From a virus, in the IMG/VR virus record IMGVR_UViG_3300025132_000084, positions 1 to 43,504 of that record: 43,504 bases of DNA; one strand, 5' to 3'. Each line of letters begins with the position of its first letter. The stretch's first letter is position 1. Below, piece after piece: positions 4,049 to 39,878 of the stretch. Position numbers and translations under genes: made by a program. The notes beneath the pieces are model-generated. The model was given only the letters and a program-made list of their open reading frames with translations. It made no database searches and was not told the DNA's origin.

Positions 4049-4136
4049 CGCTTGTTTAATTACAACCCTAATACCAAATGCTCTCCCTCGTATTGCTTCG
4101 GGGGTATTGAAGCATACAATCAAAGGAGTTGATAAT

Positions 4137-5548: not shown

Positions 5549-5637
5549 TTAACCTTACAGATATATCAAATAAGCAACTCTCTTATGCTTCAAAGGAGTA
5601 ACAAACAAGACACAACCCAAAACAGGAGTTGAAAAAT

Positions 5638-6153
5638 ATGAAAATAGAAAATTGGAATGTAAATGCAAACAAGGTTAGAGTTTGGGCAGAAGCCCAAGAT
5701 GAAGAAGACCCTCAAGTTAAAGCGATTATGCTTTCTCTTGGATTAGGAGACTCTGCACCTAATGATGAGATGAGAAGTACCTATTGGACAGCAATTCGTT
5801 CAATCGGCGGTAACATGGATGGTTTTCCATCTGCCCGCAAAGGAAGAGAATCTTCATTATCAGACGAGCAACAAATTGTTGTCGATGGTGTAGAGCAAGC
5901 CGTTATGAATGTTTTTGCGGGAATCCCTACTGAATCTCACGACTTACTACTTTCCGTAATTGTTCCTCACGGTAGGACTGGCGGCGTATATGCTGATTGG
6001 TCTGCTCTGGTCAATTCAATGAAGAAAAACGCACACAACTACATGTTGAAATCCATTAAGGAAAACCGATGGGATGGTTTGGCACTAGAAGATGGTGTTC
6101 CACAAATCACCCCTACCCCCACAAAGGCCGATGAGGTGGCCGACGAAGCGTGA
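5638..6153 (+). CDS. Paralog C of the ENW/WDG family (unknown function)
   Basis: A 171-residue protein, the close paralog of the gene at 4137: same IENW start, DEMRSTYWTAIRSIGGN block, ARKGRESSLS, HGRTGG and NRWDG. The ATG at 5638 follows AACAGGAGTTGAAAA, nearly the same leader as its paralog, so the duplication included the translation start. Between the two copies lie a leftward zinc gene and a small phage-type gene, showing that cassettes were inserted or shuffled after duplication. Function unknown. Confidence 0.75.
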   Translation: MKIENWNVNANKVRVWAEAQDEEDPQVKAIMLSLGLGDSAPNDEMRSTYWTAIRSIGGNMDGFPSARKGRESSLSDEQQIVVDGVEQAVMNVFAGIPTESHDLLLSVIVPHGRTGGVYADWSALVNSMKKNAHNYMLKSIKENRWDGLALEDGVPQITPTPTKADEVADEA

Positions 6154-9320: not shown

Positions 9321-9899
9321 TTGTCTTGGTTTTTAGTTCTTAAAAATCAAGATTTAGTGAACACTACTTTAGGAGCGACTATGGATTGGGAAAATGAAGT
9401 AGTGCCGGAAGAAAAGAAAGACTGTAAGAAAAAATTACTAGGGCTTGCTAAATATTTGTCTAATTTTGAGATACCTTTTGGCAACGCTAAACCCGAATCC
9501 AAAGAATACACCACCGAAACATTTGTGTTTAGAAATAGAGGAAGTCAAAAGGAGAGGGGAGAGGGCCATATAATGGTAGAATTAGATATTGATGATATAG
9601 GAATTTTTGATGAAGAAATGGTTTGCCTATTTAATGAAAAAATTATAGAAGTTATTCAAGCATTTATAGCAAAATCAAGTCTAAGAAATACAATTGATTT
9701 AGGCGAAAACATATTGAGAACTCATCATATGCAAAGTGCTGATTTTGGCTATCAGAGATGTCGTGCTGTTTTAGCAAACAAGGTTAAGCCAGTCGAAGAT
9801 TTGTTAGTTTTTAGGTTAAGGTATATACCAGATACAACACAGGAAAATAAAGATAAGTTAACAAGAATGTTAACTAGAATAGTCGAGATATTAAACTAA
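9321..9899 (+). CDS. Tagged tandem paralog 1
   Basis: A 192-residue protein, first of four adjacent paralogs. All four start with W-x-x-(V/I)-(L/I)-K-NQ-(D/E)-L, then a T-x-L-G-x-T-x-DWEN block, an (I/V)P plus acidic residues and a conserved Cys-(K/R)-K at about residue 33-36. Beyond that N-terminal block it diverges strongly. I choose the TTG at 9321, giving MSWFLVLKNQ, because GGAAGTGATTACA precedes it with normal spacing and it aligns with the ATG starts of the siblings. It carries the recurrent N-terminal tag. Function unknown. Confidence 0.65.
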   Translation: MSWFLVLKNQDLVNTTLGATMDWENEVVPEEKKDCKKKLLGLAKYLSNFEIPFGNAKPESKEYTTETFVFRNRGSQKERGEGHIMVELDIDDIGIFDEEMVCLFNEKIIEVIQAFIAKSSLRNTIDLGENILRTHHMQSADFGYQRCRAVLANKVKPVEDLLVFRLRYIPDTTQENKDKLTRMLTRIVEILN

Positions 9900-9912
9900 T
9901 GAAGGTGTTATA

Positions 9913-10434
9913 ATGTGGTTTGATATTTTAAAAAATCAAGAGTTAACAACTTCTCAATTAGGTGGAACTTTAGATTGGGAAAATCCAGCGATTCCCGAAG
10001 AAGAGGATGATAAATGCAGAAAAATAATAATGGCTATGATAGATAGGGCAAATGAGATGAAGCAAAAATATCCAGAATTCGACTATGATTTTACCAATTT
10101 TCGGATTGGCCCTAGTGCCGGAAAAAGTGTGGGCGAAGTGTCAGAAGAAAACATATGTAAAGCATTAGAGATGTTTAAAAATCTAAAAGGTGGAGATAAT
10201 GATATATTAAGCGAGAAAGATTTTGATGTAGTAGTCCATAAAAATTTTAAGTATTATGGAATGCTCAAAAGAACCTCAATTGGTGTAGAGGATGATATGG
10301 GCTATTTATGGGTCATAGTTGACATTTATCTTGATGATTTAGAAGACAAAAAAGAATTAGTAAAAGAATATCAAGAACTTTGCACATATATTTTCGGAGA
10401 AGAATATTACAGTCCCGATTCTAAATTTGGGTGA
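9913..10434 (+). CDS. Tagged tandem paralog 2
   Basis: A 173-residue protein starting MWFDILKNQEL, after GAAGGTGTTATA. It is closest to paralog 3: they share CRKIIM-x-MIDRA and a later SEE-x-ICKALE-x-FKNLK segment, pointing to a fairly recent tandem duplication. The rest is acidic, with mixed helix and strand. No enzyme motif is visible. It could be a cargo protein of the virion, as inferred from the tag. Confidence 0.65.
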   Translation: MWFDILKNQELTTSQLGGTLDWENPAIPEEEDDKCRKIIMAMIDRANEMKQKYPEFDYDFTNFRIGPSAGKSVGEVSEENICKALEMFKNLKGGDNDILSEKDFDVVVHKNFKYYGMLKRTSIGVEDDMGYLWVIVDIYLDDLEDKKELVKEYQELCTYIFGEEYYSPDSKFG

Positions 10435-10438
10435 TACT

Positions 10439-10975
10439 ATGTGGTGGGAAGTAATTAAGAATCAAGAGTTAGAAACTTCTCAATTAGGGGCAACTATGGA
10501 CTGGGAGAATGAAGTTATTCCCGATAAGAAAGACGACGAGTGTAGAAAAATAATCATGGGAATGATAGACAGAGCAAAAAGATATGAAGGTTTGTCGCAT
10601 GCTTTTATAACCGTCGTTCCGCTAGGAATGAGTGGGACTGTATCAGAAGAAAGTATATGTAAAGCATTAGAGATATTTAAAAATTTAAAAAACGGAAAGA
10701 TAGAAGAAACTACAGAGTCGGGCGCAGATATTGATATTTTTAAAAATCATAGTTATTCAGAACAAATGATTGACGATTATCGGGGTAAGGTTGTGTTAAG
10801 TGGAATACAGATAATAGATTGGGATAACCCAAATATCACACCAAGCACCATAAAAATAATAGTCGCTCTGAAAGCAGAGGTAAGAAAAGATAAAAAACTA
10901 TTAGAGGATGAATATCAAAAGGTTTGTGAATATATTTTTGAAGAATATTACAATACAGATTTTAAAATTGAGTGA
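10439..10975 (+). CDS. Tagged tandem paralog 3
   Basis: A 178-residue protein starting MWWEVIKNQEL. The ATG at 10439 follows GGGTGATACT, with the ribosome site overlapping the stop of paralog 2. It is the closest relative of paralog 2 in this window. It has a hydrophobic core with strand segments, acidic surfaces and a YY-x-D tail also seen in paralog 2. Function unknown. Confidence 0.65.
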   Translation: MWWEVIKNQELETSQLGATMDWENEVIPDKKDDECRKIIMGMIDRAKRYEGLSHAFITVVPLGMSGTVSEESICKALEIFKNLKNGKIEETTESGADIDIFKNHSYSEQMIDDYRGKVVLSGIQIIDWDNPNITPSTIKIIVALKAEVRKDKKLLEDEYQKVCEYIFEEYYNTDFKIE

Positions 10976-10979
10976 TACT

Positions 10980-11747
10980 ATGTGGCGACTAATATTGAAA
11001 AATCAAGAATTGGCCACCACTTCTTTAGGCGGCACTTTAGATTGGGAAAATGAGGCCATACCAGACGAAAGAGATGATGATTGCAAAAAGTGGCTGAAAG
11101 GACTATATGACTTGATAAACAAATATGCAGATATTGGTAACAAAGATATGTACGGCGAAAATATATTTCAATCAGATAGAATTTCAGAAAATTTGGCTTG
11201 CGCTATTAAAGACTATTATACTGAAGCGAGCGATATTAATACAGAAGGGGTTGAGCCGATTAAATCTGAATTAGAGCCTTTCTTAAAGAAGCATGGAGTT
11301 GATAAAGATGAATTTTCTTCTATGGTATTTGGGAATGCTACGAACCATTTTGAAATTATTATGGCAATTGAGGATAAGCACAATGAATTAATATTACTTG
11401 CAGACGTTTCTTTTTACTCTACTGAGGGGCCATTTAAGGAAGCGTTTGAATTAATAAAAAGAGACACAGGTAAAGTTAAACTTACGCAGACACCTATAAG
11501 TCAGGATGCTGCCTTAGTAATAGAGGAAGTTTTTGGTGGATTACATAAGGAAACCAAAAGATTATGTTCTTTTGTTGAAGAGTATGCTAAATACATAAAT
11601 AGGGTAGAAGTTATAGAAGAGTTTATAGATTTCTATGCCGATAGATGGCTTTACATAATGTCCAAAAATTACAGATTTAAAGAAAAGTCCTTAAAAAAAC
11701 CTACTGCGATTGAGCAATTTAAAATTCTAATTAGAAACTATTTCTAA
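10980..11747 (+). CDS. Tagged tandem paralog 4 (longer)
   Basis: A 255-residue protein starting MWRLILKNQEL. Only about the first 45 residues match the siblings; the long helical remainder is unique, so this looks like the shared N-terminal block fused to a different domain. The frame is open from 10908, but ATG 10980 after GAGTGATACT matches the siblings' starts. Helix-rich, slightly acidic, no recognised motif. Confidence 0.65.
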   Translation: MWRLILKNQELATTSLGGTLDWENEAIPDERDDDCKKWLKGLYDLINKYADIGNKDMYGENIFQSDRISENLACAIKDYYTEASDINTEGVEPIKSELEPFLKKHGVDKDEFSSMVFGNATNHFEIIMAIEDKHNELILLADVSFYSTEGPFKEAFELIKRDTGKVKLTQTPISQDAALVIEEVFGGLHKETKRLCSFVEEYAKYINRVEVIEEFIDFYADRWLYIMSKNYRFKEKSLKKPTAIEQFKILIRNYF

Positions 11748-11782: not shown

Positions 11783-11798
11783 CATCAAGGTGAGCAGT

Positions 11799-12005
11799 AT
11801 GTCATGGAAAGAAATACTGAAAACAGAAGAGAAAGCCCATTGTGGGACGGAAAAATTAGAAGATGATGACCCCTTTGAAAAGAAACTTGTGGGTAATCAA
11901 AAGAAAATTGATGCGAACAAGGATGGCAAAATTACTGGCGAAGACTTCAAACAGTTGAGAGAAAAGAAAAGCAAGAAGCGTAGTGCCTTTACTTCTGAGG
12001 ATTAA
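11799..12005 (+). CDS. Tagged mini-protein with one EF-hand loop
   Basis: A 68-residue protein: MSWKEILK tag at 1-8, an acidic linker with one Cys, a canonical EF-hand or dockerin-like calcium loop DANKDGKITGED at 38-49 (Asp, Asn and Asp at loop positions 1, 3 and 5, Gly at 6, Ile at 8), then a basic tail. ATG 11799 follows CAAGGTGAGCAGT; the in-frame GTG at 11790 is part of that ribosome site. A single EF-hand usually works as a dimer or as a small Ca2+ sensor or stabiliser; in a virion it could respond to the high Ca2+ of sea water or bind capsid. The loop is seen directly, the role is inferred. Confidence 0.75.
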   Translation: MSWKEILKTEEKAHCGTEKLEDDDPFEKKLVGNQKKIDANKDGKITGEDFKQLREKKSKKRSAFTSED

Positions 12006-16155: not shown

Positions 16156-18633
16156 ATGGATTATAGAACAGAAATTAAAAATTTAATTGAATCAGTAGAT
16201 TCTGATGCTCCAGCCTTTAGGCAAAAAAAGAGAGAATTGAGAGAAAAATATAGGAATTTTTTACAAGAACAAACAGATGATAAAGGCAACAAACTAACGG
16301 ACAAAGAAATAAAGGCTAAATTGATGCAAATGGGTAAAGACTTTAGAGAACTATCAGCAACTCAAGAAGTTCAATCTGGTGCGATTGTTTTAAACCCAAT
16401 ATTAAGAATGAGAATTACCGATGAGTTTGGAGTAGAATATGGAATAGATTCCCTACTAAATACTAAATTAGGTAAAATAAATGTTGGTGGTGATAGTGCA
16501 GAAATACGCACCGATGCGTTTATGAAGAATATAAAAAATTATGCTAAGACTTTGCCAGAAAATCAATCGGTTAATTTGCTTAGTAATATAAAAAGAATCA
16601 AGGCGGCAGCCACTAGACAAAGTAAAAAGAAAGAAAAGGTAGTTAGAGGTAAGATGATAGATGTAAATATTAGGAAATATCTTGGGGCTACTGATTTATC
16701 TAAGGCATCAACTAGAGTAGATATTTACGATTTTTGGGGTGAAGTCGCTAAGAAATATAAGAAATTTGAAAAGACTTTAAAGAATTTTTTTGATAAAGCA
16801 CTTACTTTTGATATTTCTGAAGGGGAAGAAAAAATCACAGAAGTTGAAAGAAATAAAATAAATAGAGAGTTTACTTCTGAGTTAAGAAAAATACAACAAA
16901 AATATGCCGATATGAATTTAGAATATATTGCTAACTTTACAAAGGTGGATGTTCCTGTTGAGAAAGACCCTAAAAAGAGATTATTACAAGCCTTAGATAG
17001 ACTTGTTGAAGCCCAACAGTTAACTCAATTAAAAAGACCTAAAGATGCGCCTACAGAAGATGAACCTGATGAAAGCCAAAGAAGTTGGGAAGCAGCATAT
17101 ATGGCAGAACAAGAAGAAAGAACGGGATATGGTGGTCAAGAAATAGAGATAGGAATTGCTGATGAAGAAGGGGAAGAGGAACTAAAGACCAAATACGATG
17201 TGTATTCTCTAGAAAACGCATACAAAGTTCCTGTTGACCCCTTACTAGCGTATGAAGTAATGAAAAATGTGAAACTCCTTGCTTTCACAGAAGAGAGTAG
17301 GGCCGTTCTTAGAGAGGCTTTGGATAGTCTTAGAGATGAAGAGACGGATTTAGATTTTAGAACAGATTTAACAGAATTGATTAATCAACTTAAAGATACT
17401 TTAGTTCTTGAACAAGATAATTATTTTTTACCAATTTCAGTTATTAAAAACAATGATTTCAAAACTTTTGCTAGATTTTCAAAATTAACTTCTGCTCTTA
17501 ATAACCAGAACATGGAAGTAGACATTTTAGAAACTCTAAACGAATTATTTAATGATATTGAAGACGTAATAACTGATGAAAAATTTGCCTTTGCTATGGG
17601 AGTAAGGGCCAGTGGTAGAGTAGGCATAGGAGGAAAGCCATTAGGATATGATGAAAGAAAAGAGGCTAGAGGAGGGCCAATGCAAAGTATGGTTTATGAA
17701 ACTATGAGAATAAGTCCCACACAAGGAGGCAAGAGAGGAAAGTTGAGAAACTTAAGAGAGAAAGTTATGACTCCTTTGAAAGAACTACTACAAGCATACA
17801 ATGAATATTACATTGAGCCTCTTTACGCTGGCCGTCTTCCTATTGAAGTACCAAGATATGCCACTGGAAGAGGGGCAAAGGTTCTTACTATTTTACTAAA
17901 AGATTTAGGTGGAATAAGCGTTACTTCTGATGTATATGAAATGTTAGCGACAACAGAAAGAGCAACCTTGAGTGTTCAAACTATGCGAGATTTGGCTAAT
18001 TTCTTAGTTAAATTACAAAGCCCAAATATTAGAGTTGATGATGCATTAATATCATTAGCAGAAGACGCTAGTGTCGCACTTACAGATATTTTTGGAGCAG
18101 AAGAAAAGAATCGTAATTATGTTAGTGCGGTGTTAATGCATTTCATGGAAGAAACAGGAGACATGGATAAAGCAAGAGAACAATTTTATGGTAAATCAAT
18201 AAGAGTAAGGGCAAATGCATTTGAAAGAGACTATAAGAAAAGAAAATCCTTTCCCATTTTTGCCCTACCGCAGTTCATTGATTCTAATCAATCTTTATTG
18301 ACTAAAGATAATAAAAGAAAGGAACAATACAAAAGACTCAGAGGAGTTTTGGATGAAGTCGAAGATGATTTGCCATTAGAACTTACTAAGTTACTAAAGG
18401 CTCATGATGCGATTAGAAAAGCATTAGGAAAACCAGTCTTTTATGGATTTATGCCAATATCATATTATTCAATTGAGAAAATGGTAGATTATCTTTATAA
18501 AAACAAACAGGTTGATTTGAGCCACTTGGAGATAGGCAATATTGTAAAATCCTTTGATTCCCATAAAAATATTTCAAAAGAGTACGGTATTACAGAAGAA
18601 AGTGTCTATTTAATTAAAGCAAACTTTAGGTGA
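16156..18633 (+). CDS. Largest late protein but one, helical, unknown
   Basis: An 825-residue, helix-dominated, highly charged protein without recognisable catalytic motifs or membrane segments. ATG 16156 follows GAAGGGTGATTGAT; the in-frame GTG at 16147 belongs to that ribosome site. It resembles the preceding gene in composition but I see no clear alignment. The C-terminus contains a helix-turn-helix-like segment (HKNISKEYGITEESVY). By position it could be an internal or ejected virion protein. It lacks an N-terminal tag. Confidence 0.7.
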   Translation: MDYRTEIKNLIESVDSDAPAFRQKKRELREKYRNFLQEQTDDKGNKLTDKEIKAKLMQMGKDFRELSATQEVQSGAIVLNPILRMRITDEFGVEYGIDSLLNTKLGKINVGGDSAEIRTDAFMKNIKNYAKTLPENQSVNLLSNIKRIKAAATRQSKKKEKVVRGKMIDVNIRKYLGATDLSKASTRVDIYDFWGEVAKKYKKFEKTLKNFFDKALTFDISEGEEKITEVERNKINREFTSELRKIQQKYADMNLEYIANFTKVDVPVEKDPKKRLLQALDRLVEAQQLTQLKRPKDAPTEDEPDESQRSWEAAYMAEQEERTGYGGQEIEIGIADEEGEEELKTKYDVYSLENAYKVPVDPLLAYEVMKNVKLLAFTEESRAVLREALDSLRDEETDLDFRTDLTELINQLKDTLVLEQDNYFLPISVIKNNDFKTFARFSKLTSALNNQNMEVDILETLNELFNDIEDVITDEKFAFAMGVRASGRVGIGGKPLGYDERKEARGGPMQSMVYETMRISPTQGGKRGKLRNLREKVMTPLKELLQAYNEYYIEPLYAGRLPIEVPRYATGRGAKVLTILLKDLGGISVTSDVYEMLATTERATLSVQTMRDLANFLVKLQSPNIRVDDALISLAEDASVALTDIFGAEEKNRNYVSAVLMHFMEETGDMDKAREQFYGKSIRVRANAFERDYKKRKSFPIFALPQFIDSNQSLLTKDNKRKEQYKRLRGVLDEVEDDLPLELTKLLKAHDAIRKALGKPVFYGFMPISYYSIEKMVDYLYKNKQVDLSHLEIGNIVKSFDSHKNISKEYGITEESVYLIKANFR

Positions 18634-18638
18634 TAATG

Positions 18639-19193
18639 ATGGAAGATATATTAAAAAGAATGTCATATGATGAAAATGCTGCTAGAGATGCTTTCACTAT
18701 GTTGAATTTAGGAGATAAGTTTATTTTGAATTTTAATGTATATGAGGATTTTGTTGAAAACTTTATTTCAAAATTGAAAACCCCCGCAGAAAAAACTTCG
18801 ATTAGAAGAAAATTTAACACTCTTAAGCCTAAGATGGATAGGAAAATAAAACTTTATTTCAAAAAGGTCGCAAAAGAAATGGGCTATTTTGAAATAAAAC
18901 CGGATGTATTTGATAGGTCTTTAGGCCAATTCAAAAAATCTTGGGAAGAGATATTAAAAAGAAAATCAGGAAGAAGGGGACAAAAAGCCCGTAAAAAGCG
19001 TAAGAAAAAGAAGGCTAAATATAAAGCCCCTGCCGGAGTATATACTCAACCAAAACTAAGGGAAAGAATACACGCAACTTTACTTAATCAAAATACTCAT
19101 GGAACTGCCGCAGGTGAATGGTCTGCTCGTAAATCTCAAGAACTGAATAGAAGATATCAAAAGGCAGGTGGCGGATTTGTCAATAAAAAATAA
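18639..19193 (+). CDS. Protein with internal tag and basic C-terminal domain
   Basis: A 184-residue protein in two parts. Residues 1-98 form a helical domain whose start, MEDILKRM, is itself a Trp-less form of the tag. Residues 101-107 are SWEEILK, the full tag, followed by a very basic RKKRKKKK stretch and a C-terminal GEWSARKSQELNRRY and GGG segment that I recall from small phage proteins. The second half thus looks like a former separate tagged protein fused to the first. The ATG at 18639 (or 18636) follows TTAGGTGATA. DNA binding is likely for the basic half. Confidence 0.65.
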   Translation: MEDILKRMSYDENAARDAFTMLNLGDKFILNFNVYEDFVENFISKLKTPAEKTSIRRKFNTLKPKMDRKIKLYFKKVAKEMGYFEIKPDVFDRSLGQFKKSWEEILKRKSGRRGQKARKKRKKKKAKYKAPAGVYTQPKLRERIHATLLNQNTHGTAAGEWSARKSQELNRRYQKAGGGFVNKK

Positions 19194-19440
19194 TTGGAAA
19201 AATGTTCTCAAAGGATTAACTGAGGAACAAAAAGATATGGTTGAGTGGAGTAAAGAAGAGTGGGAGCCACTTACTACAGAGGGAGGAAGACTTGCCCCTA
19301 AAGCAGTAAAGGATGCTCTTACCCCTCAACAAAGAGCATATGAAAGTCGGAAAAAAAGAGAAGGCACTAAAAAAGGAAGGCAGCATGTTCCTAGAAGCAA
19401 AGCAGCAAAAAAAGTTTATCGCAGAGTAGAAGGAAGATGA
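19177..19440 (+). CDS. Tagged small basic protein
   Basis: An 87-residue protein; with the TTG at 19177 it starts MSIKNNWKNVLK, matching the tag. AGGTGGCGGAT precedes this start inside the end of the previous gene; the in-frame GTG at 19168 is part of that site. A Trp/Glu-rich segment follows and the C-terminus is strongly basic with KKGRQHVPRSKAAKKVYRR. Likely nucleic-acid binding by charge; family not recognised. Confidence 0.6.
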   Translation: MSIKNNWKNVLKGLTEEQKDMVEWSKEEWEPLTTEGGRLAPKAVKDALTPQQRAYESRKKREGTKKGRQHVPRSKAAKKVYRRVEGR

Positions 19441-19477
19441 GTGGTAATTCAGAAATGCGCTATTTTAGGTGATTGTT

Positions 19478-19906
19478 ATGTGGCAACAAATCCTAAAGAA
19501 AGATATGTCTTACTGCGTTTGTAGTGGGCCAAATAAAACTAAAGGATTTACTTGTAAAGCGCATTGTCGTAGTAAAGAAATGAAAAAGGCTGACCCAAAA
19601 AAAGGAACAGGTAAAAAACCAAAAGGTTCAGCAAGAAGATTATACACAGATGAGAATCCAAAAGATACTGTTCCTGTAAAATTCAGAACTGCAAAAGATG
19701 TAAGAGATACATTTTCAAGTTCAGCATTTAAGAGAAAACCTCACAAGAGGCAATCTCAAATAATTAATCTTGTTGAGCAAAGAGCAAGGGTAGCAGCAAA
19801 CAGGGCTAAAGACCCCGAAGCAAAAAAGAGATTAAATGCCGCACATAAAGTAGCGTTATCAAGAAAAGAATCTAGCAAAAGAAAAACAAAGAGGATGAAA
19901 GCATGA
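19478..19906 (+). CDS. Tagged basic protein with Cys4 knuckle
   Basis: A 142-residue protein: MWQQILK tag, then four cysteines at about 12-32 (CVC then CKAHC) that could hold a metal ion, then a long Lys/Arg-rich body rich in Ala and Ser, like a histone-like or DNA-condensing protein. ATG 19478 follows TTTTAGGTGATTGTT. The tag plus metal knuckle plus basic tail fits packaged DNA-binding cargo; this is inference. It overlaps the next gene by 4 bp. Confidence 0.65.
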   Translation: MWQQILKKDMSYCVCSGPNKTKGFTCKAHCRSKEMKKADPKKGTGKKPKGSARRLYTDENPKDTVPVKFRTAKDVRDTFSSSAFKRKPHKRQSQIINLVEQRARVAANRAKDPEAKKRLNAAHKVALSRKESSKRKTKRMKA

Positions 19907-20268
19907 GTTGGAAAGATATACTTAAAACGGATTTAACACCGGAAGATGAAAAAGAAATTGAGAATCTAATGCGGTTTGAAAATCTAACTAGAGAAGACGC
20001 TGAAAGAAAATACCGAAAGAAGACGGGAAAGATTCCAAAAAGAAATCCCCCCACTGGAAGAGTAGTAAAAGAGGATAAAGTGTCCAAAGAAAACATTGAT
20101 ATGATTCTAAGAGAAGTCAAAAAAGAAGGTGGGGCTTTAGGTATGAAAAACCTAAAAGGTTTAGAAATGGAATCTAAAGAACTTAAAGAAACTCTTGACC
20201 ACATGCTAAAAGAAAAAATGCTTTTCCGCCATAAAGATGGCGACCTTTACACTCATAAACCGGAGTGA
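19903..20268 (+). CDS. Tagged protein with winged-helix-like C-terminus
   Basis: A 121-residue protein starting MSWKDILK. The middle has a LTREDAERKYRKKTG helix pair, reminiscent of UBA-like or small helical domains, and the C-terminal 50 residues have helices ending in a strand pair (MLFRHKDGDLYTH) like the wing of a winged helix. It overlaps the gene before by ATGA. DNA binding is plausible; the role is unknown. Confidence 0.65.
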   Translation: MSWKDILKTDLTPEDEKEIENLMRFENLTREDAERKYRKKTGKIPKRNPPTGRVVKEDKVSKENIDMILREVKKEGGALGMKNLKGLEMESKELKETLDHMLKEKMLFRHKDGDLYTHKPE

Positions 20269-20272
20269 TATT

Positions 20273-20581
20273 ATGACTTGGGTAAACATTTTGAAAAGAG
20301 GAAAAGCCATTGTTTACCCTGTCTTTAATCAAGCCGTTAGAAACATCATAGAAGATATGGATGGTTTTATTGCTGACGATATTCTTAACGCAGTATTAGA
20401 TGAATATATGGCACTCTTAAAAGAAGGAAAACATATGCATCCTTCGGCAATAAAACAACACGCTAGAAAAAAGGTCAAGAAAGACCTTATATCTAAAACT
20501 ATAGCAAAAATTGGAACGCATTCTGCAAAGATAGACCAAAGAGAAAATAGAACAAGAAAAGTATGGAGGAGAATAAAATGA
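20273..20581 (+). CDS. Tagged small basic helical protein
   Basis: A 102-residue protein starting MTWVNILK. ATG 20273 follows CCGGAGTGATATT, and the frame open from 20237 lies inside the previous gene. Mostly helical, acidic in the middle, strongly basic towards the end (RTRKVWRR). It overlaps the next gene by 4 bp. No family recognised. Confidence 0.65.
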   Translation: MTWVNILKRGKAIVYPVFNQAVRNIIEDMDGFIADDILNAVLDEYMALLKEGKHMHPSAIKQHARKKVKKDLISKTIAKIGTHSAKIDQRENRTRKVWRRIK

Positions 20582-20925
20582 GTTGGAAAAATATAGTAAA
20601 AGATATTGCTACTCTAATACCGTTGTGGCTACGAATATTAGTAGATTATGATTTACCTGTGCAAATAGCAAGAGAATTAAATAAATACAATAATGCTTCA
20701 AAAGGGGAGAATTACAATTTATCAACAAAGTTACAAACAATTGATGCCGATACCAATAGAGGTGCTGAAATTGGTGAAATTAGTAAAAAGGTAAGAGAGA
20801 TGGTAGAAAGAACTGATATTAAATCTCCGATGACAAATACTTACAGTGAAGATTTTAAACAAATGACTCCAAAAGAGTATGAAGTTATGTTTAAATATAC
20901 AAGACATTTAGTAGAACAATTGTGA
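20578..20925 (+). CDS. Tagged helical protein
   Basis: A 115-residue protein starting MSWKNIVK, followed by a short hydrophobic segment (IATLIPLWLRILV) and a helical, charged remainder. ATG 20578 follows TGGAGGAGAATAAA. The hydrophobic patch directly after the tag is unusual among the tagged set and might be a buried amphipathic helix. Function unknown. Confidence 0.65.
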   Translation: MSWKNIVKDIATLIPLWLRILVDYDLPVQIARELNKYNNASKGENYNLSTKLQTIDADTNRGAEIGEISKKVREMVERTDIKSPMTNTYSEDFKQMTPKEYEVMFKYTRHLVEQL

Positions 20926-20930
20926 TTAAA

Positions 20931-21332
20931 ATGAGTTGGGAAATCATTCTAAAAGAAATGGCTTGTCCAAGAGCAACGCAAGATTTGATGCTAAACACTA
21001 AGAATAGAGATGCCGCAGTTAAAAATCCAAATATTAGATATGGGCCACTTAATCTTGAAGATAAAAAATATTGGGAAGAATACGGTAAGCGATGGAATAC
21101 TACTGCTGAGGTAGCAAAGAAATCTAACTGTAGTAATTGTGTAGCGTTTGATATTAGTCCTAGAATGGAAGATTGTATGCCCTTGGAACTAGATGATGAT
21201 GGTCGTTTAGGTTATTGTTGGATGCACCATTTCAAATGCCATTCAGCAAGAACTTGTTATACTTGGGCTAAGGGTGGCCCAATCACTGATGATAAGAGGT
21301 CAAAAGAAAATCAAATGAGGGGAAAACAGTGA
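20931..21332 (+). CDS. Tagged cysteine-cluster (HiPIP-like) protein
   Basis: A 133-residue protein: MSWEIILK tag, helical linker, then cysteines at 67, 70, 82, 96, 103 and 109. The pattern C-x2-C ... GYC ... FKC ... TCYTW resembles the small high-potential iron-sulfur-like or zinc cluster that I recall from head or neck proteins of marine phages. It probably binds a metal or Fe-S cluster. ATG 20931 follows TTGTGATTAAA. The cluster is seen directly; its identity is inference. Confidence 0.65.
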   Translation: MSWEIILKEMACPRATQDLMLNTKNRDAAVKNPNIRYGPLNLEDKKYWEEYGKRWNTTAEVAKKSNCSNCVAFDISPRMEDCMPLELDDDGRLGYCWMHHFKCHSARTCYTWAKGGPITDDKRSKENQMRGKQ

Positions 21333-21610
21333 CCGAGTGGAAAGAAATCTTAAAATTTGAAAGACGATTTAAAAAAGTCGTGAGAAATAAAAAGACAGGT
21401 AGAACTAAGACTGTTAAATATGGTCAAGCAGGAAAAGCCAAAGATGGTAAAGATAGAATTAGACCAAGCACAGAGAAGGGAGATTCTTACTGTGCTAGAA
21501 GTATGGGGATAAAAAGAAGGCTACCTAAAAAGAAAAGAAATGACCCTAATACCCCTAATAACTTAAGTCGTAAAAAGTGGAAATGTCGTGGCACTAAATC
21601 AATGAGGTAA
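21329..21610 (+). CDS. Tagged very basic protein, marine-phage-type family
   Basis: A 93-residue, strongly basic protein starting at a GTG that overlaps the previous stop: MTEWKEILKF. After the tag come RKVVRNKK-type runs, a KGDSYCARSMGIK block and a C-terminal LSRKKWKCRG. I recall this GD-x-YCARS plus SRKKWKC combination from a small protein family of unknown role in marine phages. Here it has acquired the tag at its N-terminus. Two conserved Cys might bind metal. DNA binding is likely by charge. Confidence 0.7.
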   Translation: MTEWKEILKFERRFKKVVRNKKTGRTKTVKYGQAGKAKDGKDRIRPSTEKGDSYCARSMGIKRRLPKKKRNDPNTPNNLSRKKWKCRGTKSMR

Positions 21611-21615
21611 TCAAT

Positions 21616-22290
21616 ATGTGGAAGGATATTCTAAAGGTAGATAATATCATATTTGATAAAGACCAACCTCCTGCCTTTTACAATCCTCACTCTAAAGAAA
21701 TAACTTTGAATTTAACAAATATGCCATCCAAAGGCAAAACCGATGAGGAAATTATACTTGATTTAGAAGAGGTAATTATTCATGAATCTGCTCATAAAGC
21801 AACTTCATCAGAAATTAAGCATTTAACTGAAAAATTTGTAGGCGAGTTCGCAGATACCTTTGTGTCTATGGTCAATGAAGGTCTTGAGACTGGAGAAATA
21901 GATGCAAGTAAATTGTCTAATGTAGTTTCTAAGTTGCTTGAAATTGTAAGTTTAGATGAAGCCTATGCTTATAGCACTGGAGCCACTGTAAGACGAATAC
22001 CTCTCATGAACATTATTGAATCAAGTGTTGTTGGAATAGAAGAAAATCTAATAAATAAATTAATAAGAGATATAATGCAACAAATCATTCAATTGTATTC
22101 TCCCGATGACACGATGGCAATATTAGAGGCTTTAGAACGACTAAAGAGAAATTTACTAAGAAAAATGGCAAGTAAGGTATCTTCTCTAGAATTTACAGTT
22201 AAGCAATTCGTTGCAGATATGAATAAATTAACCCCCGATGAAATTAGTGATTATATGATAAAAACATCGAAGAAAATAGGCATGGTGTAA
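21616..22290 (+). CDS. Tagged HExxH metallopeptidase-like protein 1
   Basis: A 224-residue protein: MWKDILK tag, then HESAH at 56-60 (the HExxH zinc motif) followed by KATSSEIK, and Glu115 in a DEAYAY segment that may be the third zinc ligand, as in gluzincin-type peptidases. The remainder is helical. Predicted zinc-dependent peptidase or a minimal zincin fold. It is homologous to the C-terminal half of the next gene. With the tag it could be carried in the virion to cut a host or capsid-internal protein. Peptidase activity and substrate are inference. Confidence 0.7.
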   Translation: MWKDILKVDNIIFDKDQPPAFYNPHSKEITLNLTNMPSKGKTDEEIILDLEEVIIHESAHKATSSEIKHLTEKFVGEFADTFVSMVNEGLETGEIDASKLSNVVSKLLEIVSLDEAYAYSTGATVRRIPLMNIIESSVVGIEENLINKLIRDIMQQIIQLYSPDDTMAILEALERLKRNLLRKMASKVSSLEFTVKQFVADMNKLTPDEISDYMIKTSKKIGMV

Positions 22291-22300
22291 AGGTGAGATT

Positions 22301-23575
22301 ATGCCAAGGGTTTTAGGACAAATATTTACTTTTGATGAGATGAAATCTCGTTGGGATAGTGATAATCCAGAAAACCCCTATGTTCGTTCATCCACTGTTC
22401 CCGATTGGTATGATTTAGATAAATGGATTATTAGAGTAGATGACAATGACAAAACAGTTTCTACTACTGCTTGGAGAGTAGCACCAGAGTATGTTTTATT
22501 GGGCGGAACTCAAAAAATTCCCAATAGTGGAAAAGGACATTTTAAGGATTTAAAAAATAAAAGAAACAAATTATTGTCTAAGGATAGACCTTGGATAGCC
22601 GCATATACTAACGCCCCTAGATGGCTAAATACCGTTACTAGCGAAGGTGTGCAAATATATAATGAACAATATGGCGGAATAGATGAAGATATATTAAGAA
22701 GTTTACCTGAAGATATTATAAATAAAATGAAATCTTCTTATCCCGACGGAAATTGGGGTGTTTATCCAGCAACCGTTAATGTAGAAAAGGCATTTGAAAA
22801 ATCTTGGTGGCGCACTTTACCCGATAACCGTTTAAAGAAATCTTGGAGAGATATTTTAAAAGTAGATGAGTTTGTTTTTCGGCCAGAAGATAAAGCAGCA
22901 GGTTGGTATCAAGGGGGAAAGGTAACAGTAAATTTAGCGGGGAATGCTGATAAGTTAGAATCTGAAATAGTAGAAGATGTAATAGAAACAATAATACATG
23001 AATATAGCCATAAAGCAACAAGTTCAGAAATTAAGCCACTTGTTGAGAAACATATATCAAAAGCATTTGACTTATTAAATGAGTATATAGAAAACTCTCC
23101 GAGTATTGTTATTAATAATAAAGACCGCATTAGAACGAATCTTCTGCGCTCAATAAAAGAGCCTTTGGTAAAGATAGGTAAAATAGATGCTTATGATGAA
23201 ACTTATGCTTATATTACTTCTGCTTTTTCTAGTAGGGAAATGAATTTGAAGATTATAGAGTCTACCGAAGAATATATGAAAAATGTTTTAAATGGTTTTA
23301 TGAAATATGCTATGACGATTTTAGATGAGGCAGAAGTTGATAAAGAGGTTAAGGATGGAGTTAAAAAGGATTTAGAGAATCTAAAGTCTGATGTTCTTAA
23401 AGAAGTTGAAAATTATGCTGTGAATCTAACAGTATATGGGAGGGATTTCTATATGAAAATAAACGAAGACCCATACCAACCCAATAGGGGATATACTGGT
23501 GGAAAATATATTCGTGACCTTAGAAAGAAATCATTAGAAGAATTAAAAGCCAAACAGTTAGAGAGACTTAAGTAA
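22301..23575 (+). CDS. Fusion: GNAT-like domain + internal tag + HExxH domain 2
   Basis: A 424-residue protein. Residues 181-187 are SWRDILK, directly followed by VDEFVF, exactly as the tag of the previous gene is followed by VDNIIF; HEYSH at 233-237 and Glu300 in DETYAY repeat the zinc motif. The C-terminal half is therefore the paralog of the preceding gene, with its tag now internal. Residues 1-180 are an added domain with a strand, GKGH-x-x-L turn and helix pattern that weakly resembles a GNAT acetyltransferase. ATG 22301 follows AAAGGTGAGATT. This fusion shows that the tag moves with domains. The GNAT call is low confidence; the zincin call is good. Confidence 0.65.
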   Translation: MPRVLGQIFTFDEMKSRWDSDNPENPYVRSSTVPDWYDLDKWIIRVDDNDKTVSTTAWRVAPEYVLLGGTQKIPNSGKGHFKDLKNKRNKLLSKDRPWIAAYTNAPRWLNTVTSEGVQIYNEQYGGIDEDILRSLPEDIINKMKSSYPDGNWGVYPATVNVEKAFEKSWWRTLPDNRLKKSWRDILKVDEFVFRPEDKAAGWYQGGKVTVNLAGNADKLESEIVEDVIETIIHEYSHKATSSEIKPLVEKHISKAFDLLNEYIENSPSIVINNKDRIRTNLLRSIKEPLVKIGKIDAYDETYAYITSAFSSREMNLKIIESTEEYMKNVLNGFMKYAMTILDEAEVDKEVKDGVKKDLENLKSDVLKEVENYAVNLTVYGRDFYMKINEDPYQPNRGYTGGKYIRDLRKKSLEELKAKQLERLK

Positions 23576-31088: not shown

Positions 31089-31454
31089 ATGACATGGGAT
31101 TTTTATGGTGAAGGAAATAATTTTATTTTAAAGGAAAAGAAACAGGTTCCAAAAGAACTTTTAGATTCTTTAGATGCTAAAGGTAAAAAAAGATTAAAGA
31201 AAACATTACAGGCTGCTGAACCAACAGAATTTTTTGGTCAAGATTTTACTAAGTTAGGTGATTTAATTTCTACTCTTAAAGAATTAGATTTGATGAAATC
31301 AGATAAAAAACTCAATAAGAAAATAAAGTCTATGGATGAGAGAAACATTGATATTGTGGCTACTGCTACAAAACTCCGTAAGGAGTATGAATTGCTCTTT
31401 AGACAACTAAGAGATTTAGTTTATCCCGCAGGAAAAAAGGAGAGAAAGGAATGA
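31089..31454 (+). CDS. Small helical protein with divergent tag
   Basis: A 121-residue, Lys-rich helical protein. It begins MTWDFYGEGNNFILKEKK, where MTW and ILK are both present but separated by a longer insert than in the normal tag, so it is a doubtful member of the tagged set. ATG 31089 follows GGGTGAATAAT. It overlaps the next gene by 4 bp. Confidence 0.55.
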   Translation: MTWDFYGEGNNFILKEKKQVPKELLDSLDAKGKKRLKKTLQAAEPTEFFGQDFTKLGDLISTLKELDLMKSDKKLNKKIKSMDERNIDIVATATKLRKEYELLFRQLRDLVYPAGKKERKE

Positions 31455-31690
31455 GCGATAAAACCATTAATGAAGAACTACTTGAAATCATAAAGGCTTT
31501 GAGTGTTAAGATTGAGTCCTTGGAAAGAACTGTTTATTCTCAAGACAATTTGCTAATGAAGTCGGGGTATGTTGTTACCGAGACTCCCACTCCAGTAATT
31601 GATAATGTGATTGGCTCAAGTGTGGCTGATGTATCAACTATGGATTGGTCTGATATTCACAAAATGGTAGAAAATGCAGGGGGCCAATAA
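31451..31690 (+). CDS. Small protein ending in the scaffold-type tail MDWSDIHKM
   Basis: A 79-residue protein with an N-terminal coiled-coil helix (EELLEIIKALSVKIESLE), a short strand-rich middle and a C-terminal tail containing MDWSDIHKM. The scaffold encoded at 35075-35737 ends in MNWNDIHKM, so the two proteins share a nearly identical C-terminal peptide, and both resemble the N-terminal W-x-x-I-L-K tag. I infer that the tail binds the inner surface of the capsid protein. It starts by ATGA overlap. Confidence 0.65.
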   Translation: MSDKTINEELLEIIKALSVKIESLERTVYSQDNLLMKSGYVVTETPTPVIDNVIGSSVADVSTMDWSDIHKMVENAGGQ

Positions 31691-34516: not shown

Positions 34517-34546
34517 GTAGATGGAAATTAGGGAGGATTGAAGAAA

Positions 34547-35737
34547 ATGAATGTTCTTCTCAAAAGAGACACAAATGAGTTTCAAATATTAAAAAGCGAT
34601 GAATTAATGATTGGAGGATATGCAAGTATAGAAATCGTAGACAAACAAAACGATTTAATTACCCTTAAAGCATTAAATGAAGCAGTAAAAAAATATATGG
34701 AGAATCCAAAATTTAGAAATGTAATGACAAATCATTCAAATGTCCAAGTTGGAGAAGTAGTAAAATCATATCGAGATAAAACTGGGAGGTTATGGAAAAC
34801 AGAAGTAGATGATGTTGGCTTCTTTGTTGTAATTAAACTCCGTGACGATATAGAAAAAGCAAAAGAAATTAATAGAGGCATCAGAAAAGGTTCATTGAGG
34901 AGTTTTAGTATCGGAGGACAGGCAATACAAAAAGTAAAGAAAAGCCATCCAGAATTAGGACAATACAATGAAATAAGCAAACTAGAATTACATGAGGTTA
35001 CAATCTGTGAAAAAGGAATAAACCCTGAAGCAAAGTTTGACATTCTAAAACAAGAAAAAAATAAGGTGAAAAATATGACAAAATTAGAAAAAGCACTTGA
35101 GGAATTGGATTCATTGATGAATGAAGTCAATGCCTTGAGGAAGGAAGAAGAAAAGAAAGACGGAGAGATGTTGGATATGCCAGAAAAAGAAAGCATGGAA
35201 ATGGAAGACGAGACAATGTTGGAAGAGGAAAAAGGCATGGGCGAATACATAGATGCAGAGACAAAAGCAGTTGTTTCTACTCTAGATGGAGCCGGTGTTG
35301 AAATCGGAGAGCCAGCAGACAGAGTTGTTGTTGACAATGGAAAGCCTAAAGCAACTGATATGCCAGTTGTAAAGGCTTTTGATTCCAACGAATTCTCTAC
35401 ACTTGACCTTTCCAACGAAAACATCGAGAAAGCATATGAAGCATTCCGTCAAGAACAACTAGAGAAATTGGCCTACGATAATCTACAAAAGACATTTGAA
35501 AGCCGATTCGCAAAAGAAGTTACTTCTAGAGAAGAACTGTTGGCAAAGGCTGAATATGATGCTGCTAGTGAAATTGCTTCCCTCAAGGAAGAATTTACAC
35601 AATTGCGAAAGTCTCTAACTACTGAAAAGGAAACAATCCTAAAAGCACAAGAAGAGGCTCAAGTTACACTCCCTTCATTGGATGAAATTGCAGATATGAA
35701 CTGGAATGACATTCATAAAATGGCAGGAGGAATTTAA
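34547..35737 (+). CDS. Prohead protease fused to scaffold
   Basis: A 396-residue protein. The N-terminal 165 residues match the HK97-type (S78) prohead serine protease pattern: a GGYASIEIVD strand, His63 in MTNHSNVQVGE and Ser121 in RSFSIGG as the likely catalytic pair, and an LHEVTICEKGINP segment. It would cleave scaffold and capsid N-termini during maturation. The remaining 220 residues are acidic, coiled-coil rich and act as scaffold; they can also be made separately from ATG 35075. The C-terminus is MNWNDIHKMAGGI. ATG 34547 follows GGGAGGATTGAAGAAA. Confidence 0.85.
   Translation: MNVLLKRDTNEFQILKSDELMIGGYASIEIVDKQNDLITLKALNEAVKKYMENPKFRNVMTNHSNVQVGEVVKSYRDKTGRLWKTEVDDVGFFVVIKLRDDIEKAKEINRGIRKGSLRSFSIGGQAIQKVKKSHPELGQYNEISKLELHEVTICEKGINPEAKFDILKQEKNKVKNMTKLEKALEELDSLMNEVNALRKEEEKKDGEMLDMPEKESMEMEDETMLEEEKGMGEYIDAETKAVVSTLDGAGVEIGEPADRVVVDNGKPKATDMPVVKAFDSNEFSTLDLSNENIEKAYEAFRQEQLEKLAYDNLQKTFESRFAKEVTSREELLAKAEYDAASEIASLKEEFTQLRKSLTTEKETILKAQEEAQVTLPSLDEIADMNWNDIHKMAGGI
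35075..35737 (+). CDS. Nested scaffold protein (internal in-frame start)
   Basis: Inside the protease gene, in the same frame, AAGGTGAAAAAT precedes an ATG at 35075, a standard ribosome site for this window. Translation from it gives a 220-residue acidic, coiled-coil scaffold lacking the protease domain, the arrangement known for lambda C/Nu3 and several other tailed phages. It ends in MNWNDIHKM, the peptide shared with the gene at 31451, which I infer is the capsid-binding end. Production of the short form is inferred from the start site. Confidence 0.65.
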   Translation: MTKLEKALEELDSLMNEVNALRKEEEKKDGEMLDMPEKESMEMEDETMLEEEKGMGEYIDAETKAVVSTLDGAGVEIGEPADRVVVDNGKPKATDMPVVKAFDSNEFSTLDLSNENIEKAYEAFRQEQLEKLAYDNLQKTFESRFAKEVTSREELLAKAEYDAASEIASLKEEFTQLRKSLTTEKETILKAQEEAQVTLPSLDEIADMNWNDIHKMAGGI

Positions 35738-35738
35738 G

Positions 35739-37073
35739 ATGACAGGATATATTAACACAATTGCAGACTTAGAAGCACAAACATACGGATTTAGCCTTGG
35801 TGGAAGCAGTAATATGCTTTTGAAAACCGCAGGAGCGGTCACTGGTATTCATGGGGGCCATGATGCAGCAACTCAAACTTCCCCAACAACAGGTGTTGCA
35901 GGTAATCTTTACGGTGTTCTATACGGACAAAAAGTTTGGTCTATGCTAAACAGAGAAGTAAACGCACTCTCTGTTATGTCAAAAAGGCCATACACTTCAA
36001 GTGGTTGGAGAGTTCTATCAAAGCGACCTGCTGGTGGAACTGGTAACTTCCATAACTTTACTCAAACCGGAACTGATTTGGCTGGAACTGATGCTCCACG
36101 ATTAGACCATATTGGTGGTGTTCCAGAAAACGCTTCCCTATCTACAAGTGGAGATGGTTTGATTGCTATTGCTCCAGAATACTCTGTATTAAGCATGTCT
36201 CCAAAGACTGTTGCTCATCAATTCGATTTCAGCGAATTGGCAATGGAGATGGCACAAATTGATGACGGAATTGGTGACATTAGAGCGCAAATGAGAGAAG
36301 ATATGGGTAAGCATCACGCTGAATCTCAGAATCTAATGCTTGTTGCTCCATTGGAAGCATATCTACAAGCAGATAAATCAAATGCTGCTGCTAACATTGA
36401 AAGAAACTATACCTCTCTTTACAAGGTTATTTCTTCAAATGCTGAACTAGACCAAATGGACGCAGATAATTTCCCTGTTTCTTCAATCACAAACGATATT
36501 AGTGAAGCATACCACATTTACGGAACAAACCGTGACAGTGCTTCTTTCCTAGATTGCACTCTAGATTTCGGTGATGGATATGCAAGTGGAGACTCTAGAG
36601 CCTTTACCCTAACAATCATGAACAGTCTTTTGCGACAACTCCGTGAAAACGGTGGTTCACCAAAAGTTATTATGACTGGATATGACACAATTCAAACACT
36701 ATCTGACCTTCTACAATCCCAAGAGCGATTTATGGATAGAAAAGAAGTAGTTCCTACTGTTAACGGTGTTCGTGGAGTTAAAGGTGCAGAAGTTGGATTC
36801 CGTGTAGCAACTTATTACGACATACCAATGATTCCAGTTGTTTCAATGCAAAGCACATCTGCTGACTCTGGAACAATCAGTGACATGCTTTTCCTTGATA
36901 CTGACCATTTGTGGCTTGCAGTTATGAAACCAACTCAATACTTTGAAGATGGTATTAGCAACGGAAACCCATTCGGTGTTGGGCAACTTGGAAACAGAGC
37001 ATTGTATCGAACAATTGCAGAAGTAGGTTGTTCATACTTTAAAGGCCAAGGTAAAATTACCAACTTGAAGTGA
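35739..37073 (+). CDS. Major capsid protein (HK97 fold)
   Basis: A 444-residue protein placed right after the protease/scaffold gene, as in HK97-type viruses. It has a Gly/Ser/Thr-rich N-terminal part, long helix-forming stretch (FSELAMEMAQ through REDMGKHHAESQNLML, in parts), a P-domain-like region with PKVIMTGYDTI and RFMDRKEVVP, and a C-terminal PVVSMQ/FLDTDHLWLAV strand set typical of this fold. Codon use is richer in C-ending codons than in neighbours, as in highly expressed genes. ATG 35739 follows GCAGGAGGAATTTAAG; the earlier frame start at 35706 overlaps the scaffold tail. An N-terminal cleavage is possible but not predictable here. Confidence 0.88.
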   Translation: MTGYINTIADLEAQTYGFSLGGSSNMLLKTAGAVTGIHGGHDAATQTSPTTGVAGNLYGVLYGQKVWSMLNREVNALSVMSKRPYTSSGWRVLSKRPAGGTGNFHNFTQTGTDLAGTDAPRLDHIGGVPENASLSTSGDGLIAIAPEYSVLSMSPKTVAHQFDFSELAMEMAQIDDGIGDIRAQMREDMGKHHAESQNLMLVAPLEAYLQADKSNAAANIERNYTSLYKVISSNAELDQMDADNFPVSSITNDISEAYHIYGTNRDSASFLDCTLDFGDGYASGDSRAFTLTIMNSLLRQLRENGGSPKVIMTGYDTIQTLSDLLQSQERFMDRKEVVPTVNGVRGVKGAEVGFRVATYYDIPMIPVVSMQSTSADSGTISDMLFLDTDHLWLAVMKPTQYFEDGISNGNPFGVGQLGNRALYRTIAEVGCSYFKGQGKITNLK

Positions 37074-38997: not shown

Positions 38998-39666
38998 ATG
39001 TCTCTAATGACAGGCTTCGCTATTTTAGTTGGTGAAGCAGTAATAGGTTTTTGGAAAAAGGTTCACGCCATTAATTTTGGAGTCTATGGGGCAACAATGG
39101 TGGGTAAAACAACATTAAGTCATCAATTAAGAACAAGAGGAGAAGTTCCACAAATTAATAAAAGAACAGTTGGTAGGGCTAGGGCTACTAGAAAAAATAT
39201 TAAAATAGATGGTAATTCACATACAATAAAAAGTGCTGACATAGGTGGGGAAGCGATATTCTGGAAAGAATGGGAAAAAGATATGATTTTAAGAAAACCC
39301 AAATATATTATATTTATGATTGACCATCGACATTTAGACAGTGAAGTTAATTTAGACCATCAAGTAGCGTGGAAATTTTTAGTAGATACTATAATAACAA
39401 ACCTTTGGTCAAATGGGAAAAGAAAAAAAGAAGCAGATTATCCCTTAGCAGTAGGTATTTGGGCTAACAAGTATGATGTTTGGGGAGAAAAATATCCTTT
39501 ATTAGAAGGTAAAACTATAGATAAACATCAAATATTTGAACCCTTTAAATATGGCATGAGGCAGTTGAATGATAAAGGAATCCCATGCTACAAGTATATA
39601 GTTTCAGCAAAATCAGATTCAGAAATGGTGTATAAAGGAATACTTACAATGATAAAGGATTATTGA
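38998..39666 (+). CDS. Ras/Arf-like small GTPase with N-terminal hydrophobic helix
   Basis: A 222-residue P-loop GTPase. G1 is GATMVGKT at 31-38, a Thr in the INKRTVGRAR region may be the switch I threonine, G3 is DIGGE at 81-85 (the DxGG type found in Arf, SR-beta and Ras-superfamily proteins), G4 is NKYD at 157-160 and G5 is SAK at 203-205. All nucleotide motifs are intact. The first 20 residues form a hydrophobic/amphipathic helix like the membrane-binding N-terminus of Arf. It directly follows two small membrane proteins. A membrane-associated switch in assembly, entry or egress is inferred; a viral small GTPase is rare. Confidence 0.85.
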   Translation: MSLMTGFAILVGEAVIGFWKKVHAINFGVYGATMVGKTTLSHQLRTRGEVPQINKRTVGRARATRKNIKIDGNSHTIKSADIGGEAIFWKEWEKDMILRKPKYIIFMIDHRHLDSEVNLDHQVAWKFLVDTIITNLWSNGKRKKEADYPLAVGIWANKYDVWGEKYPLLEGKTIDKHQIFEPFKYGMRQLNDKGIPCYKYIVSAKSDSEMVYKGILTMIKDY

Positions 39667-39671
39667 TTATT

Positions 39672-39878
39672 ATGTGGGAAAAAATATTAAAACATGATGC
39701 AACAGAAATAAATAAAAAAAACATATTAGAATATATTAAAAAAGATACTGATAATGCAAGGGTTGTAGAAATGTTATATAATAATTGGAAGAAAGATAAC
39801 TTTAGCACAAAATCAAGAGGTTATGATTCACTTAGATTATTCATAAAAGGATTAAAAGATTTAGAATGGGAACTATAA
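39672..39878 (+). CDS. Tagged small helical protein
   Basis: A 68-residue protein starting MWEKILK, the only clear tagged gene downstream of the capsid gene. It is charged and helical with no other motif. ATG 39672 follows GGATTATTGATTATT, a weak site overlapping the GTPase stop. Its presence far from the main tagged cluster shows that the tag is not just a product of local tandem duplication. Confidence 0.6.
   Translation: MWEKILKHDATEINKKNILEYIKKDTDNARVVEMLYNNWKKDNFSTKSRGYDSLRLFIKGLKDLEWEL

Follow-up and report, generated by a model that had tools for sequence, protein, structure and literature searches.

The capsid-targeting sequence (CTS) of bacteriophage T4, borne by the internal proteins IPI, IPII and IPIII and by Alt, is a short N-terminal tag on proteins with unrelated or hypervariable bodies (PMC3012670, PMC9026906); it is ten residues long, and targeting depends mainly on residues 4 and 7 (PMC9026906). 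The T-even internal proteins form a diverse anti-defence set in which only the targeting sequence is conserved, T4 IPI being an anti-restriction protein (PMC3012670). In phage P1, an N-terminal signal sends the accessory proteins of the Dar antirestriction system (DarB) into the head for injection (PMC9024508). The giant phages SPN3US and phiKZ have many inner-head proteins, including the tandem paralogs gp53/gp54 with identical N-termini, and a prohead protease (PMC5694885). Here we analyse a 43,504-nucleotide stretch of viral DNA, a single IMG/VR record (IMGVR_UViG_3300025132_000084, hereafter the window), which by its gene content and relatives is a 43.5 kb fragment of a magrovirus, order Magrovirales. 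Four tandem paralogs at positions 9321-11747 begin with an eight-residue tag, MxWxx[IV][LI]K, that also begins many unrelated late proteins. Comparison of sequences makes it fairly probable that this tag is a magrovirus capsid-targeting sequence resembling the end of the prohead scaffold, that the tagged proteins are cargo packaged and injected with the DNA, and that the paralogs form a hypervariable cargo array.

The likeness to T4 is one of working principle, in that the tag may work like a CTS. Both are short, N-terminal and placed on proteins with unrelated or hypervariable bodies, and the T4 targeting sequences MKTFKEFT and MKTYQEFIAE of IPI-III share with MSWKDIL the order T/S, aromatic, any residue, acid, hydrophobic. 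Unlike the T4 CTS, the magrovirus tag has an invariant W and K, occurs on far more genes per genome, resembles the scaffold C-terminus and has no recognised processing site after it; the virus is archaeal, its S78-type protease is fused to the scaffold, and packaging of its tagged proteins is putative. The P1 Dar N-termini yielded no consensus by BLAST (PMC9024508), whereas the magrovirus tag is one common consensus, and the mostly long cleaved propeptides of the giant phages (>100 residues; PMC5694885) contrast with a tag of eight residues followed by a linker of about 25. While capsid-targeting sequences are known from T4 and P1, the magrovirus tag and its resemblance to the scaffold appear to be new: no report of either was found in the open literature searched, and neither the tag nor the arrays are described in the accessible magrovirus papers or that literature.

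A common tag on the paralogs and on other late proteins

Four open reading frames (ORFs), A to D, lie head to tail on the + strand and are true paralogs, as had been proposed in a sequence-only reading of this DNA:

9321..9899, + strand: paralog A, TTG start, 192 amino acids; tag MSWFLVLK, linker NQDLVNTTLGATMDWENEVVPEEKKD, Cys, two-Cys alpha/beta body
9913..10434, + strand: paralog B, 173 amino acids; tag MWFDILK, linker, two-Cys body
10439..10975, + strand: paralog C, 178 amino acids; tag MWWEVIK, linker, two-Cys body; closest to B
10980..11747, + strand: paralog D, 255 amino acids; tag MWRLILK, linker, longer body related to L086:845-1567

The ATG of B, C and D directly precedes the W, and A most likely starts with the TTG at 9321, giving MSWFLVLKNQ. 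Alignment recovered in all four the block seen by that reading (W-x-x-[IV]-[LI]-KNQ-[DE]-L, LG[AG]T[LM]DWEN, P[ED] and C-[KR]-K) and B and C as the closest pair (about 50% identity, body E = 2e-21), the remaining body matches being weak or in other viruses. Among known families, the paralogs have no Pfam match above the cut-off and no strong PHROG match; an assignment of D to DUF5063 (Pfam, E 0.004) fell under the cut-off and was discarded. At the shared head residues of the four genes, synonymous codon mismatch is 0.48, versus 0.50 expected for independent codons. The head is thus conserved at the protein level, since its synonymous codons are as randomised as independent ones.

The shared head, as judged from the alignments, is made of two parts, the eight-residue tag and a linker of about 25 residues. 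While the whole head is present in all four paralogs, its W..[IV][LI]K part is not theirs alone and starts about 11 other ORFs, or about 15 in the window. The tagged and motif-bearing ORFs outside the array, with the major capsid protein (MCP) by which the virus group is defined, are:

11796..12005, + strand: tagged ORF MSWKEILK..., weak EF-hand/dockerin-like loop
12112..12306, + strand: tagged ORF MNWKEVLK...; same sequence start in an array-adjoining gene of relative G050
18630..19193, + strand: ORF with MEDILK-like start; its internal tag (KSWEEILKRKSGRRG) begins the product of a separate gene in relative G005
19168..19440, + strand: tagged ORF ...NNWKNVLK
19469..19906, + strand: tagged ORF MWQQILKK
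19903..20268, + strand: tagged ORF MSWKDILK
20276..20581, + strand: tagged ORF MTWVNILK
20578..20925, + strand: tagged ORF MSWKNIVK
20931..21332, + strand: tagged ORF MSWEIILK; its body has a phage homologue that is annotated as high potential iron-sulfur protein
21329..21610, + strand: tagged ORF MTEWKEILK, basic
21616..22290, + strand: tagged ORF MWKDILK with HExxH (metallopeptidase-like) domain
22301..23575, + strand: fused tagged unit, with SWRDILK inside the protein and another HExxH domain copy immediately after it
35706..37073, + strand: major capsid protein, HK97-like; marker defining the virus group
39663..39878, + strand: tagged ORF MWEKILK, downstream of the capsid genes

The HExxH domain common to 21616-22290 and 22301-23575 is preceded by WxDILKVD in both, once at the N-terminus and once internally. 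Small tagged neighbours of the array units carry an EF-hand/dockerin-like loop (DANKDGKITGEDF) or a DLDKDG loop (window 11796-12005; G041 62015-63037), with possible calcium binding.

Relatives were gathered by an MCP scan, which returned 455, of which 80 were kept. The tag consensus M-[STN]-W-[KEQ]-[DEN]-[IV]-[LI]-K stops at the K in a sequence logo, and each near-complete relative encodes 5-19 tagged proteins from dozens of unrelated families. Across 82 related loci the tag was observed 122 times near ORF starts, versus 0.55 from shuffled proteins, and the tagged proteins (median 122 amino acids) form over 50 sequence clusters whose bodies are unrelated, HExxH, PAP2-like and GNAT-like domains being among them. 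Only the W and K are common to an alignment of 77 tagged proteins from eight genomes, and it is the tag alone, without the linker, that precedes unrelated bodies. When one DNA version of the tag was searched in all IMG/VR contigs, 107 stretches were returned, and 38 of 50 source records encode the same MCP family, including all records of at least 80 kb.

The distribution along the genome is biased too. In eight near-complete genomes all 95 tagged ORFs are on the MCP strand, mostly 4-34 kb upstream of the MCP, while the opposite strand holds 546 untagged ORFs. As with a T4-type CTS, a short N-terminal peptide thus stands on unrelated late proteins, and the early/replication block has none. Two tagged families have bacteriophage homologues without the tag, which marks it as an add-on: cyanophage homologues of the tagged DUF6321 proteins begin directly before the core, and the homologue of the 20931 protein in Actinomycetia phage DSL-LC01, which adjoins a capsid maturation protease, has a different N-terminus. 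An origin of the tag at the DNA level or as a translation-start signal was ruled out, as synonymous codons vary freely and C-terminal versions exist. This analysis bears out the delivery-type head of the sequence-only reading insofar as the head acts as a modular address tag on dozens of unrelated late proteins and matches the scaffold C-terminus; that reading had missed both the spread of the tag over a whole class of late proteins and the match to the scaffold end.

Resemblance to the scaffold C-terminus

Two window proteins of the head region carry a motif like the tag at their other end:

31451..31690, + strand: small coiled-coil-like ORF, ends ...MDWSDIHKMVENAGGQ; C-terminal scaffold-type motif
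34538..35737, + strand: S78 prohead protease-scaffold, ends ...MNWNDIHKMAGGI; scaffold-end motif resembling the tag

In the window, as in relatives with a complete C-terminus, the terminal motif of the protease-scaffold is ...M[DNE]W[NS]DIHKM.... Diverged scaffolds end in MSWGDIHNL, MTWDDVHSL, MSWEELNDL, MSWDEINDL or LSWDEIANI, and the core M/L-x-W-x-[DE]-[IVL] is kept throughout. Furthermore, two tagged proteins of relatives have SWQDILRW or NWKDILK at the C-terminus. The likeness between these C-termini, that of the 31451-31690 protein and that of the scaffold suggests that the motif is a terminal linear signal of the scaffold and of the putative cargo. By our own comparison the T4 cargo tag too resembles an end of its scaffold, since gp22 starts with MLKEQLIAEA.

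HCTV-1 (Druskaviridae), considered as an outgroup for covariation of tag and scaffold, was uninformative, its scaffold ending without the motif. Its late proteins 107 and 109 (L088:14668-21261) carry another recurrent module, W[VT].DP.[DE]APNRW.NTETGE.RYQE.KPGS, possibly a Druskaviridae counterpart of a shared cargo module.

Evolution of the bodies and the linker in tandem arrays

The block is not restricted to this virus. Arrays of 2-8 tandem copies, located by a profile search with the units (alignment A1 gave two array-bearing loci, and A5 was too divergent for a pattern scan), occur in about a dozen relatives. Four units are fused in one 855-residue ORF of G023 and two in G050, and WxxIL is kept by the first unit only. 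Fused units, up to four, are seen in the multi-domain ORFs L229:8344-10911, L118:12559-14495 and L085:7162-7995, the internal ones having lost WxxIL and kept the linker and Cys. This pattern is what one would anticipate should a single tag be enough for a whole chain and the linker serve a purpose apart from it.

Relatives G070 and G072 share seven orthologous units in the same order, G072 having one extra, and allow the rates of head and body to be compared. Pooled ratios of nonsynonymous to synonymous substitution (dN/dS) are 0.17 for the heads (95% interval 0.09-0.32) and 0.60 for the bodies (0.49-0.73); for untagged genes of the same pair they are 0.16 (MCP), 0.17 (scaffold) and 0.02-0.28 (the others compared around the capsid gene). 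The bodies thus do diverge fast, as had been predicted, and depart from normal purifying selection. Their pace reflects relaxed or diversifying selection: pairwise dN/dS lies below 1 and so does not demonstrate positive selection, and an arms race with the host is plausible.

On the other hand, the earlier picture of a conserved head followed by different effectors needs revision on its second half. Conservation extends beyond the head into a domain that the units have in common and that holds another invariant cysteine ([SP]EExxC), which indicates that the bodies are homologous. Both cysteines (C35/C102), one at the linker end and one in [SP]EExxC, are kept in 42 of 42 aligned units, and body types recur across viruses. 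AlphaFold models of two of the four bodies, both of low confidence (A: predicted local distance difference test, pLDDT, 68 and predicted template modelling score, pTM, 0.63; B: pLDDT 61, pTM 0.55), show one topology, in the order disordered head, helix with Cys, strand, helix with Cys, four strands, helix. The same predicted fold, on which the notion of diverse effectors would founder, is therefore indicated for A and B within the limits of these models. Unrelated folds behind one head, as in polymorphic effectors, are not what the cysteines and the low-confidence predicted topology point to, and the paralog bodies are, on alignment and model evidence, one hypervariable family. Searches with the two models gave no significant match among solved or viral predicted structures (best PDB matches E 0.11 and 0.014; VIA-align Z at most 5.3). 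A weak PUR/whirly-like (nucleic-acid-binding) likeness recurs (8cht, Z 4.9, root-mean-square deviation 3.2 over 82) and is a lead only.

The linker is specific to the paralogs and is alike within a virus and different between viruses. Each of 30 units, taken from seven viruses, finds its best linker match within its own virus (30/30), with a mean similarity of 0.68 within a virus and 0.18 between, and body similarity is low everywhere (0.07 within, 0.05 between). Body types nevertheless cross viruses: A resembles L086:3242 (E 9e-9), D resembles L086:845 (6e-5) and B resembles L106:9828 (3e-6).

It is quite possible, although we doubt it, that bodies are simply swapped by recombination behind a resident head, with no coevolving partner of the linker. 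Such swapping would suit body types that move between viruses when linkers do not, and the frequent gain, loss and fusion of units, but in most arrays the resident heads are old and their linkers agree all the same. Indeed, head synonymous mismatch is 0.47-0.54 in most arrays (0.50 expected) and 0.30 and 0.40 in L128 and L131. As most arrays stand at the independent-codon level, linker agreement is mainly due to selection; recent gene conversion of heads is unsupported in most arrays and possible in L128 and L131.

Proposed mechanism and alternatives

What we infer for the capsid-targeting reading is binding at the scaffold end, packaging, injection and a host target. The tag would be a short terminal helix, W-x-[DE]-[IV], mimicking the C-terminus of the protease-scaffold. 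At the site which that end occupies, whether on the interior surface of the shell or in the scaffold core, tagged proteins would bind, become trapped inside the prohead, remain with the DNA and accompany it into the host. The virus-specific linker is probably the site for one common viral partner, for instance a processing enzyme or a sorting adaptor, and the two-cysteine alpha/beta body probably acts on a changing host target, as the T-even internal proteins do. We also put forward, as a doubtful extension, that one linear motif serves both as scaffold handle and as general cargo code, N- or C-terminal, so that whichever late gene gains MxWxxILK has its product loaded into the head, and that the linker directs the hypervariable cargo to a private partner, making a two-level address system for a private injected anti-host set.

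Several points weigh against capsid targeting. Where the tag has its invariant Lys, the scaffold motif varies between K, R, N, S, D and A, and the position filled by L or I in the tag is mostly H or N in the scaffold. The scaffold of HCTV-1, the closest relative in culture, ends without the motif, which leaves no virus of known virion protein content to which the signal could be traced, and magroviruses are uncultured and hence have no virion proteome (PMC10768690). In two window proteins the motif is internal (22841 and 18939). No recognisable cleavage site follows the tag; its logo has no conserved residue beyond the K at +5. The four paralogs are acidic, unlike the T4 internal proteins, and compared with untagged neighbours the tagged proteins show no clear excess of basic character (p = 0.07); net charge was accordingly set aside as support for T4-like internal proteins, the difference not being significant. 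Finally, the relatives were partly gathered by a tag-based pattern, the first set having been gathered by MCP alone.

The tag could instead be an assembly signal, its bearers being scaffold helpers or minor head, neck or tail proteins that join the growing particle by means of the motif and afterwards either leave it or remain as structural parts, with nothing injected. The tagged genes do share a strand and block with the structural genes, many of their products are short, and the motif is C-terminal in the protease-scaffold and a second head-region protein. We regard this as unlikely, for the tagged genes number 5-19 per genome, change patchily in content and include hypervariable arrays, all of which suits accessory cargo better, as do the HExxH, PAP2-like and GNAT-like domains. 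Binding to a membrane through an amphipathic N-terminal helix, or to one host factor, by late proteins that work within the cell, is quite improbable; the likeness to the scaffold would then be coincidence or reflect prohead assembly in the same place. The spacing of W, I and L does match one amphipathic helical turn, and a helix at residues 3-13 is predicted for B with low confidence, but the D, E and N preferred between W and I are unusual for a membrane anchor, and neither the C-terminal versions nor the strict late-strand location fits. That the shared head reflects common descent only, through recent duplicates and chance W..ILK starts with no common function, is hardly credible even though the four genes are true paralogs, given a more than 100-fold enrichment of the tag on unrelated bodies and head synonymous sites at the independent-codon level, by which the peptide is kept by selection.

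The earlier view of a delivery head with fast-changing bodies is largely supported. The Poseidoniales, hosts of magroviruses, are among the most abundant surface-ocean archaea. If the tag is a packaging code, it would give a sequence-based list of probable virion-internal proteins in uncultured viruses, nominate anti-host candidates with the hypervariable arrays first, and provide an archaeal virus with a capsid-targeting signal; scaffold ends would then appear to be the templates from which cargo signals are copied.

Identity of the virus and neighbouring genes

Magrovirales/Aoguangviridae are viruses of Poseidoniales (PMC10768690), recognised by a genome of 90-100 kb, a replisome with family B polymerase, RFC and ligase, and a relationship to Druskaviridae (PMC10768690). 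The window encodes the large terminase, portal, S78 prohead protease-scaffold, HK97-like MCP, ATP-dependent ligase and an HMG-CoA lyase-like enzyme, the last two being its own contribution to the Magrovirales characters. The relatives supply the others: a replisome with family B polymerase, RFC and ligase, a structural block opposed to it, and Druskaviridae kinship. Those of 92-99 kb have the replication block on the strand opposite to the capsid genes, with RFC and a split family B polymerase in that of G050, and by MCP and RFC the closest viruses in culture are those of Haloarcula, HCTV-1 included. The record of the magrovirus type member YSH_150918 (ON649702) did not appear among the phage-collection hits. 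Described magroviruses agree in genome size, split polymerase, RFC, ATP-dependent ligase, HMG-CoA lyase, two opposed blocks and Druskaviridae kinship (PMC10768690). The host is taken to be Poseidoniales because gene content and relatives match the description of Magrovirales, and not on the basis of a provirus. One scan of genome contigs for a provirus-based host pointed through two contigs to a Maricaulis bin, and these are more likely viral sequence placed in the wrong bin than a host. These magrovirus contigs, L089 and L090 (NZMJ01000024.1 and NZMJ01000101.1), belong to a public metagenome-assembled genome named Maricaulis sp. and are probably mis-binned.

The HMG-CoA lyase-like gene lies at 26392-27276 in the structural block, between a terminase-adjacent gene and the portal gene; HMG-CoA lyase is an auxiliary metabolic gene listed for Aoguangviridae too. 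Towards the early end, 4107-4640 and 5629-6153 (+ strand) encode two similar proteins with DEMRSTYWTAIRSIGG..FP.ARKGRESSLS, a small diverged family to which 2633-3076 (- strand) possibly belongs.
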